Positions 2,698 to 44,621 of a DNA stretch of 64,000 nt are shown piece by piece. Where the stretch lies: contig NZ_SEWG01000007.1 in assembly GCF_004168255.1 (NCBI RefSeq), forward strand, positions 124,001-188,000, given 5' to 3'. This stretch comes from Mucilaginibacter terrigena. Lineage in GTDB: Bacteria > Bacteroidota > Bacteroidia > Sphingobacteriales > Sphingobacteriaceae. Below the pieces are notes generated by a model. It worked only from the letters and a program-made list of their open reading frames with translations. It was not told the origin of the DNA and did no database searches. Within the stretch, counting starts at the first letter, position 1. Each line of letters begins with the position of its first letter. The position numbers were made by a program, and so were the translations under genes.

Positions 2698-2702
2698 TTA
2701 CA

Positions 2703-2774
2703 AAGCGGAAAGCCAAAAGCAGAAAGCCAAAAGCAAAAATATCCTGGAAAGCTTTCAGCTTTAGTCTTTAAGCT
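2703..2774. repeat. Leader inverted repeat with tandem 13-mers
   Basis: The left arm (2703-2734) holds two exact direct copies of GAAAGCCAAAAGC (2708-2720 and 2722-2734). The right arm (2748-2774) is an imperfect reverse complement of it. The structure would form a hairpin in the leader of the barrel gene, 15 bases before its start codon. Its design resembles the TATCAAG-type repeats near metH, but with a different unit. Confidence 0.6.
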
Positions 2775-3926: not shown

Positions 3927-3939
3927 TTTAGCAGCATAT

Positions 3940-4035
3940 AGTTCATAGATCATGGTTCATGGTAGCTGCTGCTATGATTTATAAACCAATCGTTTTATGT
4001 TCCCACTATGATCTATGAACCATCAACCATGAACT
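3940..4035. repeat. Inverted repeat between convergent genes, ATGAACC/ATGATCT units
   Basis: Left arm 3940-3965 and right arm 4006-4035 are reverse-complementary blocks made of short units such as ATGAACC and ATGATCT in slightly shuffled order. It fills the gap between the convergent barrel and methyltransferase genes and nearly touches the latter's stop codon. It could serve as a bidirectional transcription stop, although there is no run of T. Confidence 0.65.
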
Positions 4036-10717: not shown

Positions 10718-10740
10718 GTTGCACATGGTTTTCAAAGCAA

Positions 10741-10855
10741 TCGCCCGGCTCCGGCCGGGTGATGACTATTTGTAGGCCTCTGGCCGCCTGGTTGATAATT
10801 TTAAGACTGCGGCGGGACGCCGTGTAATATTGATCGCTCGGCCGGAGCCGGGCGA
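10741..10855. repeat. GC-rich inverted repeat with 19-bp arms
   Basis: TCGCCCGGCTCCGGCCGGG at 10741-10759 is matched by its reverse complement at 10837-10855 with a single mismatch. The interior holds smaller GC-rich palindromic pieces. Short reading frames in this stretch are by-products of the symmetry. Confidence 0.75.
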
Positions 10856-10864
10856 CTGCAATAG

Positions 10865-21879: not shown

Positions 21880-22836
21880 CTAAAATATCGCCTCTGCGAT
21901 CCTCTTTGTTGGACCCGGATTACCCATGGTGTAAAAATGCAGTACCGGTGCGCCGAATTTTACCAGCTCTTTACACTGCTCTATCATCCACTCGATACCG
22001 ATATCCTTTACATTCTTTTCGTCTTTGCAATCATGGATGGCATCGCTTAATGTTTCGGGGATATCGATATGGAATGTCTTAGAAAGATTAACCAGTTGCT
22101 TTGATGTTGTGATCGGTTTCAGGCCCGGTATTATCGGCACGTTAATCCCCTCGGCACGGCAGTTATTCACAAAATCGAAATACTTCTGGTTATCAAAAAA
22201 CATCTGGGTTACGATGAAGCCCGCGCCCATATCAACCTTTTGTTTAAGGTATTTAAAGTCGGTTTTTAGATTAGGGGCTTCGAAGTGTTTTTCAGGATAC
22301 CCGGCAACGCCAATACAGAAATCCGTTTTTAGGATACCTTCGTAATGCTCGTGCAGGTAAACGCCGTTGTTCATGTTCACTACCTGCTGCAGCAGATCGG
22401 TAGCATAGCAATGGCCGTTGGGCGTAGGTACGAATGAAGCATCACCTCGGCGGGCGTCACCACGTAACACCAATACGTTATCGATACCAAGAAATTGCAG
22501 GTCTATCAGGCCGTTCTCGGTTTCGTCCTTGGTAAAACCACCACAAAGCAAATGCGGAACGGTATCTACCTTGTATTTATTCATGATAGCCGCGCAAATG
22601 GCGATAGTGCCCGGCCGTTTGCGGTAAGCAAGTTTCTCCAGCAAGCCGGTTTCATGCTCCTTATAAATATAATCCTCGCGCAACGATGTTACATCAATAA
22701 ACGGCGGCTTAAACTCCATTAGCGGGTCTATCGCATCATAGATCCCCTGGATGCTCTGGCCTTTTAAAGGCGGTATCAATTCGAAGGAAAAAAGCGTTTT
22801 GCCGTTGGCGTTTGCTATATGTTCGGTTATCTTCAT
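21880..22836 (-). CDS. metF: Methylenetetrahydrofolate reductase
   Basis: A 318-residue cytosolic flavoprotein of the usual bacterial length. It reduces 5,10-methylene-THF to 5-methyl-THF, the methyl donor for MetH. Signatures: FSFELIPPLKG at the front, DVTSLREDY near 50, LGIDNVLVLRGDARRGD near 115-130 (the family RGD-type flavin segment), CIGVAGYPEKH near 172 and GAGFIVTQMFFDN near 200. It lies downstream of metH on the same strand, separated by the repeat-framed four-helix-bundle pseudogene, and therefore is probably expressed from the metH leader with its SAM-I riboswitch. ATG 22836 is the start. Confidence 0.95.
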   Translation of the reverse strand: MKITEHIANANGKTLFSFELIPPLKGQSIQGIYDAIDPLMEFKPPFIDVTSLREDYIYKEHETGLLEKLAYRKRPGTIAICAAIMNKYKVDTVPHLLCGGFTKDETENGLIDLQFLGIDNVLVLRGDARRGDASFVPTPNGHCYATDLLQQVVNMNNGVYLHEHYEGILKTDFCIGVAGYPEKHFEAPNLKTDFKYLKQKVDMGAGFIVTQMFFDNQKYFDFVNNCRAEGINVPIIPGLKPITTSKQLVNLSKTFHIDIPETLSDAIHDCKDEKNVKDIGIEWMIEQCKELVKFGAPVLHFYTMGNPGPTKRIAEAIF

Positions 22837-22839
22837 AAT

Positions 22840-23266
22840 AGTATCAAGTAGTTAGTATCAAGTATCAAGACCTGATTATTTATTCAGGCTTTTTTGCAAG
22901 CCATGTATCATCTTCTGTATATCTGTAAGTAATTGAGTAATGTCTTCAAGTTGTTTAGCATCAATATAACCGAACTCTTTTGCTATTATACATTGCGTTT
23001 CGAGTTCAAAGCTGAACCCAAGGAAATATTCAAGAATTGGTGTAATTCTTTATTTGATTTGCGTCCGCAACCTTCTGCAATGTTTGAAGGAATGGAAACT
23101 GCAGCCCGTGTCATTTGAGATATCAATCCGTAACGCTCATCACCCGGGAAATTTCTGGTTATAGAAAAGATAGATTTGCTTACTTCTATCCCTGCTCTCC
23201 ATACTTTTAATTCTTTAAAATTGTGCATGCTGCGGTCTTGATACTTGATACTAATTACTTGATACT
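22840..23266. repeat. Inverted-repeat element framing a four-helix-bundle gene
   Basis: Arms of 32 bp at 22840-22871 and 23235-23266 are reverse complements with one mismatch. Each arm is built from the heptamer TATCAAG (two tandem copies plus a partial one). The element is 427 bp, fills the metH-metF gap almost completely and contains the frameshifted four-helix-bundle gene. A second pair of the same arms without the gene lies at 26993-27106. This is the pattern of a small mobile or formerly mobile unit, but no target duplication is apparent. Confidence 0.8.
22876..23228 (-). pseudogene. Four-helix-bundle protein (23S rRNA intervening-sequence protein family), frameshifted
   Basis: From ATG 23228 the product begins MHNFKELKVWRAGIEVSKS and continues through SNIAEGCGRKSNKELHQFL, the hallmark of the S23/IVP four-helix-bundle family. 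After ISLGSAL the frame runs into NSKRNV and a stop at 22986. The family sequence continues in another frame as FELETQCIIAKEFGYID and ends at 22876. One T missing in the GCTTTGAA stretch (about 23008-23010) explains the break; restoring it gives 117 residues, the normal length. The gene sits inside 32-bp inverted repeats. It is either a recent pseudogene or a sequencing error. The family is related to Avd proteins of diversity-generating retroelements; its cellular role is unknown. Confidence 0.85.
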
Positions 23267-23269
23267 TTT

Positions 23270-26200
23270 TTAATAATTCAAATTCGGCCCCAGCCATCTT
23301 TCAATCGTATCAATCGATAAGTTTTTACGTACTGCGTAATCCTCTACCTGGTCTTTACTTATTTTATTTAATCCAAAATACCTTGCCTGCGGGTGTGCGA
23401 AATAAAACCCGCTAACCGATGCTGCCGGTGTCATGGCCATGCTTTCGGTAAGGTGCATATGGGCATTGTCTTCGGCTTTAAGCAAATCGAATAACGTTGG
23501 TTTCTCGGTGTGATCCGGGCAGGCCGGGTAACCGGGCGCCGGGCGAATGCCCTGATACTCCTCTTTGATCAGATCGTCGGTATCCAGGTGCTCATCTTTT
23601 GAGTAGCCCCAGTATTCCTTGCGTACCAGCTCGTGCATTTTTTCGGCGAAGGCCTCGGCAAAGCGGTCGGCAATTGCCTTGGCCATAATGCTGTTGTAAT
23701 CATCATGGTCTGCCTCAAAACCTGCCACCAGTTCGTCGCAGCCGATACCCGATGTTACGGCAAAGCCGCCAAAGTAATCGGCCACGCCGCTATCTTTTGG
23801 TGCGATGAAGTCCGACAGCGCATAATACGGCTCACCTTTAACCTTTTCGTTCTGCTGGCGAAGCGTGTGGATCCGCGCAAGCAAATGCTGGCGGGTATCA
23901 TCGGTATATAATTCGATATCGTCGCCTACGCTGTTGGCCGGCCAAAAACCGATAACGCCATTAGCACGCAATAACTTTTCGTCTACTATCTTTTTCATTA
24001 ATGCCTGCGCATCGTCAAAAAGCTTTTTAGCTTCGTCGCCCACAAATTTATCGGCGAAGATCTTTGGATAGCTGCCGCGCAGTTCCCAGGTATGGAAAAA
24101 TGGTGTCCAGTCGATATACGGCACCAGTTCTTCCAGCGGGAATGCTTCAAAAACCTTTGTGCCCGTAAATGTTGGCGCAGGCGCAACAGTATCTAAATTT
24201 ATCTGGAATTTTTGTTCGCGGGCCTGCTCAATACTTACAAAACGCTTATCGCTTTTTTTGTTAGCATGTGCCTCGCGGGCTTTGGTGTATTCGTCTTTTA
24301 TGCCTTGTATGTAACCGTCGCGGGTATCGCGGTTCATCAGGCTGCTGCAAACGGTTACGCTACGCGATGCATCCAAAACATGTATGGCACCTCCAGAATA
24401 ATGAGGCGCAACTTTTACCGCCGCGTGGATGCGCGAGGTTGTTGCCCCGCCAATAATTAGCGGAATGGTAAAACCTTCGCGTTCCATCTCTTTGGCAAAA
24501 TGCACCATTTCGTCAAGCGAGGGAGTAATTAAACCGCTTAGGCCTATAATATCAACTTCGTGCTTTTTAGCTTCTTCAATTATTTTTTGGGCGGGCACCA
24601 TCACTCCAAGGTCTATCACCTCGAAGTTGTTACACGCCAGTACCACGCCAACTATGTTTTTACCAATGTCGTGCACATCACCTTTTACGGTGGCCATTAA
24701 AACCTTGCCTGCATTGGCGCGGCTTCCGCTGCTGTCTTCACCCGCATCAATTACACGCTGTTTTTCCAGTTCGATAAATGGCAACAGATAAGCCACCGCC
24801 TTTTTCATTACACGGGCCGATTTTACCACCTGCGGCAAAAACATTTTACCGGCGCCAAACAGGTCGCCTACTACGTTCATGCCGTCCATCAGCGGGCCTT
24901 CAATTACTTCTAAAGGTTTGGCAAATTTTTGGCGGGCTTCTTCCACATCATCATCCAGGTATTCAATAATACCTTTAACCAATGCGTGTGATAAACGTTC
25001 TTCCACCGGCCCATTACGCCATGCCTCGTCCCGTACTATCTCTTTCCCTTTACTTTTGATGGTATCGGCAAACTCAACCAGGCGCTCGGTGGCGTCGTCT
25101 CGACGGTTCAGCAAAACATCTTCAACCAGTTCCAGCAGGTTTTTGGGGATCTCCTGGTAAACCTCCAGCATCCCGGCGTTTACAATGCCCATGTCCAGCC
25201 CGGCTTTAATAGCATGGTACAGGAAAGCCGAGTGCATGGCCTCGCGCACCACGTTATTACCACGGAACGAGAACGATATATTACTTACCCCGCCGCTTAC
25301 TTTAGCGTAGGGCAGGTTTTGTTTTATCCAGCGGGTAGCCTCAATAAAGTCTACCGCGTAGTTGTTGTGTTCTTCCAACCCCGTGGCTACGGTCAAAATA
25401 TTCGGATCGAAGATGATATCCTGCGGCGGAAAACCCACTTCATCAACCAATATTCTATAACAGCGGCCACAGATCTCTTTACGGCGTTCCAGTGAATCGG
25501 CCTGGCCGGTTTCGTCAAATGCCATTACTACGGCGGCAGCACCGTAGCTTAATATCTTACGGGCGTATTCTTTAAATTTTTCTTCACCCTCTTTCAGCGA
25601 GATAGAGTTTACGATGCCTTTCCCCTGCAAACATTTCAAACCTGCTTCAATAACCGTCCATTTAGACGAGTCTATCATGATGGGCAGCTTGGCAATATCC
25701 GGCTCGCTGGCAACCAGGTTCAGGAATTTCACCATCACCGCTTCCGAGTCGATCATACCCTCATCCATGTTAATGTCGATAACCTGCGCGCCACCTTCTA
25801 CCTGCTGCAAGGCAACGGTAAGGGCAGCCTCGTAATCTTCGGCAAGGATGAGTTTAGAGAATTTTGGCGACCCGGTAATGTTGGTACGCTCGCCTATGTT
25901 TACAAAGTTTGTTTCGGGGGTAAGGGTTACGGCTTCCAGTCCGCTTAAGCGTAAATAAGGCTCAATTTCTGGCAGTTGCCTTGGGGGATATTTTGCGGCC
26001 TTATCGGCAATGCATTTGATATGTTCGGGGGTAGTGCCGCAACAACCACCAACAATATTTACCAGCCCGGCTTTTATAAAATCATCAACCTGGTGGGCTG
26101 TTTCGTGCGGGGTTTCGTCGTAAGCGCCAAATTCATTCGGTAAACCGGCGTTTGGATAGGCGGAGATAAATACACCCGCCTTGTCAGAAAGCTCCTCTAA

Positions 26201-26986
26201 GTGCGGCCTCATTTCCTTTGCGCCCAAAGCACAGTTTAAACCTACGGATAGCAGGTTGGCGTGACTGATAGAGTTCCAGAAAGCTTCAACCGTTTGCCCC
26301 GATAGTGTACGGCCAGATGCATCGGTAATGGTGCCCGAAATCATAATGCCGCCTGTATCGCGGAACGCAGGATAATCTTTACCATCAGCCTTGCATTCCT
26401 CCTTGTAGCGTTGAATAGCAAACAATGCCGCTTTAGCGTTCAGGGTATCAAATATGGTTTCGACCAATAGCAGGTCCGAGCCTCCATCAACCAACCCTCG
26501 TACCTGCTCGTAATAGGCATCGGCCAGGTCATCAAAGGTAACGGCGCGATAACCGGGGTCGTTTACATCGGGCGATAATGAGGCGGTACGGTTTGTAGGA
26601 CCAACAGCGCCAGCTACAAACCGGGGTTTTGATGAGTTGCGTTTGGTATATTCGTCGGCTACTTCGCGGGCAATACGGGCACCTTCATAGCTTAGTTCGT
26701 AATCAAGTTCTTCGAGGTGATAATCGGCCAGGGATATGCGTTGCGTGCTGAAGGTATTGGTCTCGATGATATCCGCCCCTGCATCCAGGTACTCGGCATG
26801 GATAGCTTTGATCACATCCGGTCGGGTAATGTTCAGCAGGTCGTTATTGCCTTTAAGATCAGATGCATGGTCACGGAAACGCTCCCCACGGAAATCCTCC
26901 TCGGTGAGCTCATACCGTTGGATCATGGTACCCATAGCCCCGTCAATAACCAATATGCGCTTTTGTAGTTCTTTTCTAATATCCAT
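23270..26986 (-). CDS. metH: Cobalamin-dependent methionine synthase
   Basis: A full-length 1238-residue enzyme that moves a methyl group from methyl-THF to homocysteine through cobalamin. All four modules are visible: homocysteine-binding (about 1-340) with zinc cysteines in VGLNCALG near 255 and [10 protein letters not shown] near 315; pterin-binding (about 360-620) with [17 protein letters not shown]; cobalamin-binding with [14 protein letters not shown], whose His near 771 is the lower ligand, and [11 protein letters not shown]; and the reactivation domain with [15 protein letters not shown] near 1165, which binds SAM. The start ATG 26986 lies seven bases from an inverted repeat, which itself follows a SAM-I riboswitch. 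metF is downstream. Confidence 0.97.
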
Positions 26987-26992
26987 TGTTCG

Positions 26993-27106
26993 GTATCAAG
27001 TAGCGAGTATCAAGTATCAAGTATCAAGTACCGAAACCCCGATACGTGAGCATAATATCCGGCACAAGAAAAAAGTCTTGATACTTGATACTAATTACAT
27101 GATACT
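26993..27106. repeat. TATCAAG inverted repeat in the metH leader
   Basis: The arm near metH (26993-27030) has three tandem TATCAAG heptamers plus a partial one; the distal arm (27075-27106) equals the arm at 23235-23266 except for one base. Between them lie about 45 unique bases instead of a gene. It would form a long hairpin between the riboswitch and the metH start codon, ending about seven bases before the ATG. Confidence 0.8.
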
Positions 27107-28250: not shown

Positions 28251-28341
28251 TTATTTTTTAGAAATTATTTGTACGAATATAGTAAAAACGTTGTAATGGT
28301 TATAAAAGTTGTAAGGGTTGTAAAGCTTACAATAGGATGAA

Positions 28342-28956: not shown

Positions 28957-29763
28957 TTATTTCTTTAAACTTTCAACTGCTTTTCTAACGCTGCCATACT
29001 CTTTCAATAGGGCGGCTGCTTCACTTTCGGGGAGGCCGGTTTCGGCCATTACCATGTTGGTACCGCGCTGTATCAGCTTATCATTTGATAACTGCATATC
29101 CACCATTTTATTACCCTTTACCCTGCCCAGTTGTATCATTACACTTGTGCTCAGCATATTTAAAACCAGCTTTTGCGCGGTACCGGCTTTCATGCGGGTA
29201 CTGCCTGTAACAAACTCGGGGCCGGTAACTACTTCTACCGGGTATTGCGCTGTTGCGGCTACCGGGCTGCCTGCGTTACAAACAATGCACCCCGTGGCAA
29301 TGCCATGTTCATTAGCGGTTTTTAACCCGCCTATCACATAGGGCGTAGTGCCCGATGCAGCTATGCCCACCACTACATCCTTTTCGTTGATATCAAACTC
29401 TTGCAGGTCTTTCCATGCCTGTGTGGTATTATCTTCGGCAAATTCAACAGCTTTGCGTATGGCGGTATCGCCGCCCGCGATGATACCCACCACCCAATCG
29501 AACGGAACACCAAAAGTTGGAGGGCATTCCGAAGCATCAACCACGCCCAACCTGCCGCTGGTGCCCGCGCCTATGTAAAATAAGCGGCCGCCTTTTCGCA
29601 TACGTTCGGTAGTGATCTTTGCCAGCGCTTCTATCTGCGGCAGGGCTTTCTCCACCGCTAATGGCACGGTTTTATCTTCGTTATTGATATTTTGAAGGAG
29701 CTCTATCAACGGCATGCTTTCCAGGCCGTTGTATTTAGAGTCTGTTTCGGTGCTTCTTTCCAT
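28957..29763 (-). CDS. murQ: N-acetylmuramic acid 6-phosphate etherase
   Basis: A 268-residue SIS-domain enzyme that removes lactate from MurNAc 6-phosphate to give GlcNAc 6-phosphate, a step in cell-wall recycling. The diagnostic segments are present: RLFYIGAGTSGRLGVVDASE in two halves (residues about 61-80) with the catalytic glutamate just before CPPTFG, GIIAGGD near 93, GIAASGTTPYVIGGL near 135 and GSTRMKAGTAQK near 190. The length is slightly below the usual 300. A NagZ-like hydrolase gene lies 1.8 kb away, consistent with a recycling function. Confidence 0.93.
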   Translation of the reverse strand: MERSTETDSKYNGLESMPLIELLQNINNEDKTVPLAVEKALPQIEALAKITTERMRKGGRLFYIGAGTSGRLGVVDASECPPTFGVPFDWVVGIIAGGDTAIRKAVEFAEDNTTQAWKDLQEFDINEKDVVVGIAASGTTPYVIGGLKTANEHGIATGCIVCNAGSPVAATAQYPVEVVTGPEFVTGSTRMKAGTAQKLVLNMLSTSVMIQLGRVKGNKMVDMQLSNDKLIQRGTNMVMAETGLPESEAAALLKEYGSVRKAVESLKK

Positions 29764-29776
29764 TTTAAATATAAAT

Positions 29777-29863
29777 TTAGCCTCTCCCCGGCCCTCTCCG
29801 AAGGAGAGGGTGCTAAATATATTTTAAAGTCCTCTCCTTCGGAGAGGATTTAGGAGAGGCTAA
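29777..29863. repeat. CTCTCC/GGAGAG intergenic repeat
   Basis: TTAGCCTCTCC at the left end pairs with GGAGAGGCTAA at the right; two inner hairpins, CCTCTCC GAA GGAGAGG-like and CCTCTCC TTC GGAGAGG, lie between. It precedes murQ in the divergent spacer with the S41 peptidase. Confidence 0.75.
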
Positions 29864-29938
29864 TATTTTAACAAAATTGAATAAAAAACATCAAAGCAAC
29901 GACGGTGATATAAATTATAAGCAATAGATGCTAATTAT

Positions 29939-43617: not shown

Positions 43618-44523
43618 ATGGCCGTTACCACGCAACATATTAAACCCCATTGCACCGATTTCAGATCGGTTGCGCGTGCGCTAACCGTTGTTGAAAATAA
43701 CCTTGCCGGCGCTGCTCAACTTTTAAAAGGCCTTACCTTTAATACACAAACACCTGTTATAGGTATAACAGGCCCGCCGGGCGCGGGCAAAAGCACGCTG
43801 GTAAATGCCATCATTAATAACCTGGTACAGGGAGGTAAAAAAGTAGCTGTGCTGGCTATAGACCCAACCTCGCCATTTAATTTCGGGGCGTTGCTGGGCG
43901 ACAGGATCCGCATGGCATCGCACTTTAACCATCCGGATGTTTTTATCAGGTCGCTGGCGACGCGGGGGTCGCTGGGCGGGCTATCTGCAAAAACTATTGA
44001 AATGACAGATGTGCTTAAGGCATCGGGCTTTGACAATATCATTGTAGAAACGGTTGGCGTGGGGCAGTCGGAAGTAGAGATTGCAGGCCTTGCCGATATT
44101 ACTTTTGTAATGTTGGTACCCGAGGCAGGCGACGAGATCCAGAACATTAAATCGGGCCTGATGGAAATTGCCGACGCCTTTATTATTAACAAGGCCGACA
44201 GGGACGGCGCGGAACTATTTATCAACAACCTTAAAAAAATATTACAGCAAAGTAAAGATGGCAAGCTGCCCATATTTAAAACCGTCGCTTCCAAAAACGA
44301 GGGGATAGATGCTGTAACAAGCTTTATATTGTCCAACCCCAAAACAAACAACACCCGCCGCGAACTGCTGCTCACCCAAAAAGTTTACAACATCATCCAG
44401 CAAAATAAAATGGCAGGGATTGATAAGCAAAAACTACAGCAGGATATTGCCAAGGCCTTAAAGGAGGATACATTTAATATATATCAATTCGCAGAAACAT
44501 ACGCAGCCCCCCCCGCCCCCTGA
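43618..44523 (+). CDS. meaB: MeaB/ArgK-type GTPase chaperone of methylmalonyl-CoA mutase
   Basis: A 301-residue G3E-family GTPase. GITGPPGAGKSTLVNAI near residue 48 is the P-loop; DPTSPFNFGALLGDRIRM, IRSLATRGSLGGLS, VETVGVGQSEVEIAGLAD and INKADRDG (the N-K-x-D base motif) follow in family order. It protects and reloads the B12-dependent mutase. The mutase genes are not in the window, though metH shows the cell uses cobalamin. The protein is a little shorter than most, and its last residues APPAP and the stop codon are supplied by a C-rich repeat arm, suggesting that a repeat inserted at or eroded the original end. Confidence 0.92.
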   Translation: MAVTTQHIKPHCTDFRSVARALTVVENNLAGAAQLLKGLTFNTQTPVIGITGPPGAGKSTLVNAIINNLVQGGKKVAVLAIDPTSPFNFGALLGDRIRMASHFNHPDVFIRSLATRGSLGGLSAKTIEMTDVLKASGFDNIIVETVGVGQSEVEIAGLADITFVMLVPEAGDEIQNIKSGLMEIADAFIINKADRDGAELFINNLKKILQQSKDGKLPIFKTVASKNEGIDAVTSFILSNPKTNNTRRELLLTQKVYNIIQQNKMAGIDKQKLQQDIAKALKEDTFNIYQFAETYAAPPAP

Positions 44524-44621
44524 AGGGGGAGCTTTTGAAAAGCAAAAGGCGAAACGTATCGGACGTTTCGCCTTTTTAACTAATATAAAATTCTACTCCT
44601 CCTTCAGGGCGGGGGGGGGCT
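44505..44621. repeat. Inverted repeat with C9/G10 tracts flanking a terminator
   Basis: The left arm 44505-44531 (AGCCCC..., GCCCCCTGAAGGGGGAG) and the right arm 44596-44621 are imperfect reverse complements. The left arm forms the 3' end of meaB, including its stop; the right arm ends six bases before the stop of the convergent peptidase. Long C and G runs could vary in length. Confidence 0.75.
44544..44577. terminator. Bidirectional terminator between meaB and the M24 peptidase
   Basis: Stem AAAAGGCGAAACG / CGTTTCGCCTTTT, seven-base loop, A run before and T run after; it suits both convergent genes. Confidence 0.9.

Follow-up and report, generated by a model that had tools for sequence, protein, structure and literature searches.

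Results

The element between metH and metF

In the metH-metF gap of the window (the whole stretch of DNA analysed, 64 kb in length) lies a unit of 427 bp, which occupies the gap save for 3 nt on either side (Table 1). It consists of a gene of the S23/IVP family and two arms, of which the left one ends 3 nt off the start codon of metF and the right one 3 nt off the stop codon of metH. A 427-bp unit at this place, bounded by two nearly perfect reverse-complementary arms of 32 bp with one mismatch, had been described in the original prediction; this was borne out, the arms being in fact 33 bp long, and stretched to 36 nt they are 94% complementary. With up to two mismatches allowed, TATCAAGTATCAAG had 7 matches in the window, compared with 0.42 expected, and none of 100 shuffles matched this count. 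It is very unlikely that the arms are due to chance or artefact. For an RNA comprising positions 22837-23269, a folding energy of -117.5 kcal/mol (z -6.0) was predicted, with the arms as a single long stem.

Table 1. Position of genes, arms, hairpins and other repeats in the window.
Feature	Position	Strand	Remarks
Whole element	22840-23266	-	427 bp, co-directional with metH and metF
Left arm	22840-22872	+	TATCAAG-type 7-bp array (AGTATCA AGTAGTT AGTATCA AGTATCA AGACC); sequence AGTATCAAGTAGTTAGTATCAAGTATCAAGACC
Four-helix-bundle gene (S23 / 23S rRNA IVP, PF05635, TIGR02436)	22876-23228	-	frameshift near 22995-23013
Right arm	23234-23266	-	reverse complement of left arm, one mismatch
metF	21880-22836	-	co-directional downstream neighbour
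metH	23270-26986	-	co-directional upstream neighbour
Gene-less TATCAAG-armed hairpin	26993-27106		adjoins metH start codon
Second gene-less hairpin	3929-4026		GTTCATA / GATCATG type 7-bp units
Hairpin of CCCCCTGAAGGGGG type	44508-44619		apparently of the CCCCTGAAGGGG...CCCCTTTAGGGG family
Lone tandem array	2702-2739		7/14-bp units (AAAGCAG type), partner arm not detected
Lone tandem array	28286-28325		9/18-bp units (AAAGGTTGT), partner arm not detected
Long imperfect palindrome	10737-10859		of another kind
Long imperfect palindrome	29754-29886		of another kind

The gene and its protein family

The larger piece of the gene matched profile PF05635 with 91.4 bits (cut-off 33.8), and the match of the gene to TIGR02436 was 81.7 bits (cut-off 24). 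The match to the profile falls into two reading frames, covering model positions 1-74 and 64-112 (gene pieces C7:146995-147216 and 146900-147013 on contig 7), and the window copy is therefore frameshifted and decayed. Thus the S23/IVP gene expected between the arms is there, but it is not intact. Its start codon (ATG, 23228-23226) and the stop codon in the second frame (22878-22876) were both read by eye.

When a profile built from seven relatives was used, the solved relative XCC0516 (2gsc) was found with E 1.7e-32; this protein from Xanthomonas campestris is described as a homopentamer, and the function of S23/IVP proteins is given as not known, in the part of the article available (PMC4990558). 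Similarity to Avd was obtained for one intact family protein with E 3e-6, which is under the curated cut-off; homology of 4DWL and 2GSC is stated in the accessible text of PMC10053308. The family was present in 232 of 296 sampled Bacteroidota genomes, often in several copies (up to at least 15 per genome). No family match was obtained in 50,697 phage records, using one query and E 1e-3.

The dN/dS ratios of 41 pairs of family genes ranged from 0.021 to 0.248, with a median of 0.076, but are only rough, since silent sites are near saturation in many pairs. By these ratios, family genes that have stayed intact are under purifying selection, and their protein is thus of importance. Decay was also seen, as the frameshift in the window copy and as stop codons in several other copies.

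Arms around other family genes

The source genome (4.28 Mb, 17 contigs) contains 14 S23/IVP-family genes, which gave 15 profile matches because the broken gene was counted twice. All 14 are flanked by an inverted pair, the best pair being 12-44 nt long. The 13 genes other than the window copy have inverted arms of units different from TATCAAG, among them GGTCATT, AAAGGTA, AGTCTGA, GTTCATA and ATTAGTGA; one unit is common to L009 and L012, and the units of L006 and L010 are similar.

For a test of the arms, the upstream flank of each gene was scored against its downstream flank, with flanks of other loci in the same set as control, and a locus passed when its own pair exceeded the 95th percentile of mismatched locus pairs of that set. 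A first mismatched control had included very high-scoring pairs (maximum 114); per-set medians and 95th percentiles formed the final control. In six sets, with 7 places occurring in two of them, 161 of 228 scored loci were above control: 13 of 13 in the source genome (L014 was not caught by the profile and remained unscored), 44 of 69 in other genomes of the genus, 45 of the 77 scored among 80 named loci, mostly of Bacteroidota (51 of 80 with other flank lengths), 7 of 12 on plasmids, 27 of 28 in six further genomes, and 25 of 29 in the class of the genome behind L222. The remaining 67 loci failed. In the original prediction, the unit was taken for a small non-autonomous element or for part of a system of repeats linked with the protein family, an idea to be given up if arms occurred nowhere else near such genes. 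The counts support this proposal, since most family genes examined have arms, though mostly with other units.

The flanks have a period of 7 bp. Over 222 distinct loci the mean identity at lag 7 was 0.400, compared with 0.284 for shuffled flanks; at lag 14 it was 0.367, and the remaining lags were within about 0.015 of shuffled values. Lag 7 was best in 165 loci and lag 8 in 21. As controls, neighbouring genes had lag 7 as best in 16 of 222 cases, Y1-transposase loci in 0 of 16, and genes of the window in 6 of 39, a set which includes neighbours of hairpins. The inward-reading strand of the flanks is poor in C (13.8% versus 23.9%). By record title, some of the loci come from cyanobacterial plasmids, from one MAG each of Gracilibacteria, a Methanophagales archaeon and Ignavibacteriae, and from proteobacterial MAGs; single MAG contigs among them may be misbinned.

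Some of the arms, mostly those of the GGTGCGG type, pair only weakly, and 7 of 32 gene-bearing elements from metH-metF gaps score under the 95th percentile of shuffles. The arrays of L260, on a Pseudanabaena plasmid, are in direct orientation, and L261 has hardly any arrays.

Several of the loci have other features near the family gene. In two cyanobacterial plasmids (L260 and L265) it lies within a CRISPR locus, between cas6 and cas4, with heptamer arrays flanking it, and can therefore pass for a component of the system; it may be an insertion. In L265, cas1d of type I-D comes next. Of 20 loci scanned from the set L302-L330, 7 contain tRNA genes; these follow immediately after the family gene with its 3' arm in L319, L322, L324, L325 and L327, and lie further off in L308 and L310. 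At one place in a Gracilibacteria MAG (L285, identical with L233) a match to 6S RNA is located just before the family gene on the opposite strand.

Gene-less hairpins with the same arms

Hairpins with the arms of the window element, but without a gene, occur in the same genome. A second copy of the arms without a gene had been reported about 4 kb off; this copy was confirmed, but its arms are less perfect, with 5.4 tandem units on one side and a complementarity of 73-80% depending on the pairing. A search of the genome for the arm, suggested at the same time, yielded five further places (L331, L332, L333, L016 and L020), and at none of these was a family gene found between the arms. By two search patterns, the TATCAAG unit thus has at least six hairpins without a gene, besides the one decayed copy that bears it. 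Since the gene-less copies share their ends with the gene-bearing one, a MITE-like criterion is met.

Turnover of sites and units

Among 149 genomes of the genus, 144 yielded MetF; 100 metH-metF gaps were retrieved, of which 98 were readable. Seven gaps which had been chosen for carrying the gene were excluded from the frequencies of occupancy, leaving 91; L022, L030 and L105 had also entered via the gene but were kept because of their rank within the MetF list. The gene was present in 25 of the 91 gaps. A hairpin of about 110 nt, GTCATTGCGAGG...CCTCGCAATGAC, occupied 38, and a second hairpin family of about 90 nt, CCCCTGAAGGGG...CCCCTTTAGGGG, occupied 23 (L072, L074 and L083 are examples of gaps with these two families in relatives of the genus); four gaps had other contents and one was empty. 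Differing occupants adjoin even MetF proteins which are 98-99% identical to that of the window. The comparison of this gap between relatives, named in the original prediction as one of two possible refutations, showed gaps with the gene, gaps with other contents and a single empty one, and not the same gene without arms in all relatives; like the search for arms near other family genes, it did not refute the prediction.

At orthologues of ten family-gene sites of the source genome in five close relatives, the gene was present in 9 of 40 retrieved gaps, twice only in part. These 40 gaps are part of a longer list of matches, and orthology is one-sided in four of them (L341, L366, L372, L373), where the upstream flank was unaligned. 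In the L001 gap, a native gap sequence of just under 60 nt is common to G076, G043 and G046, and nearly all of it is lost in G000 and G027, which have the gene, and in G087, which has a gene-less hairpin. The element replaces the native gap here and does not split it; simple insertion is no explanation.

When a strict detector was used, 12 of 30 gaps orthologous to the six gene-less TATCAAG sites in five relatives proved to contain a heptamer hairpin, and in 9 of these 12 the unit was other than TATCAAG. The 12 gaps contain all 13 hairpins which were detected in 94 kb of loci; three were detected in the 64-kb window. The detector misses plain arms (in L369 nothing was detected, with arms visible). 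By eye more than 12 sites have heptamer hairpins, but the count was restricted to 12, and one foreign unit recurs, also by eye, across several sites of one relative. The different units at standing sites fit a refilling of hairpin sites by the active unit of each lineage.

Some arrangements within single loci were noted. In L080 (G010) the gene tail with the 3' arm is repeated three times in tandem, and in L396 (G087) an entire gene-less hairpin is duplicated in tandem. In L055 (G007) an old TATCAAG-type arm is situated outside a newer arm of the GTTGTGAG type, as if an element had landed in an element.

Inheritance of gene and arms

For comparison of arms with proteins, the 92 of 156 loci with a clear arm pair (score of at least 14) were used, and 64 were excluded. 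Between loci at different sites, arm similarity was 0.7 or higher in all 8 pairs with protein identity above 80%, in 60% of 72 pairs at 70-80% identity, in 31% of 62 pairs at 60-70%, and in 5% of 398 pairs at 50-60%. Same-site pairs gave 69% of 36, 65% of 34, 32% of 22 and 4% of 28. Without separation of sites, similar arms were found in 18 of 979 pairs at 40-50% identity, in 3 of 1963 at 30-40%, and in none of 584 below 30%. The arm sequence follows the lineage of the protein. Since it does so even at different sites, gene and arms travel together; they form one unit of inheritance, found at different sites and coming and going between species. Recognition of the arms by the protein is not proven by this, because linkage alone would yield the same result.

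In the source genome, L009 and L012, whose proteins are 87% identical, resemble each other over the 150 nt before the gene (score 117), and outside the arm the resemblance is lost (score 11); behind the gene there is little likeness by strict scoring (score 7).

These results bear on a local origin of the arms, which could have arisen and drifted in place around any gap by slippage of 7-bp units and by template switching in hairpins, which would keep the two arms alike, with an unrelated small gene that merely prefers such gaps. The number of units does vary, each locus has two like arms, different units occur at orthologous gaps, and tandem duplications exist (the hairpin of L396, the gene end of L080), all of which speaks for a local process. 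It would hardly place the same complex arm at seven sites of one genome, where relatives often use other units, nor would it give related proteins at different sites a unit sequence in common, or make the likeness of L009 and L012 break off at the 5' arm. We consider a purely local origin unlikely.

Orientation and mode of movement

The gene mostly reads with its neighbours: in 225 loci it was co-directional with both in 189, against both in 6, and mixed in 30. The strands of neighbours were assigned by a rough ORF rule, and many of these loci are related. In the 98 readable metH-metF gaps, all 32 genes present read with metF; on plasmids, 2 of 12 loci (L261 and L263) read against both neighbours.

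A classical insertion sequence was rejected, since there is no transposase between the arms and the 427-bp unit encodes a gene of the S23 family. By eye, no target-site duplication was noticed in filled and other gaps, where the elements reach nearly to the stop and start codons.

Movement could be provided in trans if a chromosomal Y1 transposase (HUH, RAYT-type) carried REPIN-like hairpins in the form of single-stranded DNA, with the S23/IVP gene as passenger or helper. The ends common to gene-less and gene-bearing hairpins would agree with this, and all 12 multi-copy genomes searched have Y1_Tnp; but it was also found in 5 of 14 control genomes, and as Y1 genes are common, their presence says little. 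None of the 16 retrieved Y1 loci had flanks of heptamer period, and several have palindromes of different sequence. Y1 was therefore rejected as the mover, and the trans explanation as a whole appears decidedly unlikely.

Alternatively, the host may keep the stem and the protein as a regulatory device which processes or tunes the operon mRNA. The low dN/dS ratios would be understandable then, as would the position directly between housekeeping cistrons and the presence of the gene or one of the two hairpin types in 86 of 91 metH-metF gaps; a retained device should not, however, shift in presence between close relatives as the gene does at the orthologous gaps (9 of 40), nor be exchanged for wholly different hairpins in the same metH-metF gap, and we find this quite improbable. 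RNA-mediated movement by a reverse transcriptase, comparable to that of Avd and diversity-generating retroelements and with the sense transcript as mobile form, is highly improbable in spite of the orientation bias and the Avd similarity, since such a bias is expected too for a gene without its own promoter, and since RVT_1 was not found in six of the 12 multi-copy genomes, two single-contig ones among them, which disfavours reverse transcriptase as a required mover; in the source genome the sole RVT_1 match lies on contig 5, and the window belongs to contig 7.

Discussion

Nature of the element

The unit in the window is, in our opinion, probably a decayed mobile hairpin element, which consists of two convergent 7-bp arrays around one S23/IVP (Avd-like) gene. 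Most likely it is of a transcribed, stem-forming kind, like the intervening sequences (IVS) of 23S rRNA, but placed between cistrons; the mover has not been shown. The same arrangement around many relatives in bacteria and in an archaeal genome points to a family of mobile elements which has been overlooked.

In an operon transcript the arms would be expected to pair into a long stem, which RNase III could perhaps cleave, in the way it cleaves the IVS of 23S rRNA with their genes of this protein family; both the stem and its processing are inferred. A stem cut between two cistrons would leave both reading frames usable, and insertion would thus be tolerated. The protein may bind the unit array or the stem and could help the element and its gene-less derivatives to spread, and existing hairpin sites would be refilled by whichever unit is active; these steps, and a tie of the protein family to nucleic-acid structure in general, are inferences. 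Against the mobile hairpin element counts that no transposase, excision or target-site duplication has been shown. Against a needed protein counts that the S23 protein of Coxiella was inferred by the authors not to be made and to be expendable, according to the available part of PMC4990558.

A wider reading is possible, but in our estimation falls somewhat short of being probable: S23/IVP proteins would define a class of bacterial and archaeal mobile hairpin elements with lineage-specific 7-bp arms, which would be the common source of the heptamer repeats of cyanobacteria, Xanthomonas and Bacteroidota, of the 23S rRNA IVS, and of multi-copy four-helix-bundle genes, the protein recognising a fast-changing repeat and refilling hairpin sites. 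The tie between heptamers and S23 proteins gives the protein a testable substrate and the repeats a candidate maker; if it is true, the rRNA IVS are a special case of a wider element.

Comparison with known systems

REPIN/RAYT systems have a gene flanked by its own repeats, and gene-less paired repeats in intergenic regions. The present elements are alike in both respects, but their gene belongs to PF05635 and is not a Y1 (HUH) transposase, and their arms are tandem heptamers which change from locus to locus, whereas the Y1 genes examined are without flanks of heptamer period. With Avd of diversity-generating retroelements the protein is distantly homologous; the difference is that no reverse transcriptase lies beside the element, and 6 of 12 tested genomes have none.

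Heptamer repeats have been published as GGGAATC arrays in Xanthomonas (70 and 75 convergent pairs) and as GGGGA(C/T)T repeats in Nostoc, of which few are paired (PMC4692102), and as TAACTGA arrays in Beggiatoaceae, cyanobacteria and Bacteroidetes (PMC4679880). According to the accessible portions of these articles, they too are 7-bp units and largely intergenic, and they are described without a partner of the S23 family; S23 or four-helix terms are absent from the main text of both. The arrays reported here differ in that they bracket an S23-family gene, on cyanobacterial plasmids as well. A link between heptamer repeats and the S23/IVP family was not found in the open-access literature, and a published link is not excluded.

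The IVS of Coxiella burnetii is the closest in anatomy. As given in the available text of PMC4990558, it has 428 nt, lies in helix 45 of 23S rRNA, has a terminal stem of 28 bp and is cut by RNase III; its S23 ORF is in the sense of the transcript and is preceded by GACAGAT heptamers in tandem (three, or only two in some strains), which the authors do not link to other repeats in that part of the article. The protein family is common to it and the window element, the sizes are 428 nt and 427 bp, terminal inverted repeats form a stem (predicted, of 33 bp, for the window), the ORF is sense to the host transcript, and in Coxiella heptamers are present just before it. The window element differs by its position between the protein cistrons metH and metF, by arms which are themselves heptamer arrays with a lineage-specific unit, and by the many copies per genome, gene-less copies included. 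An rRNA location was ruled out by this position and by Rfam scans, in which no rRNA was found in 100 family loci of about 3 kb. The defining 23S rRNA location is thus unmet and the element is not filed as a 23S rRNA IVS; as far as anatomy goes, it works like one.
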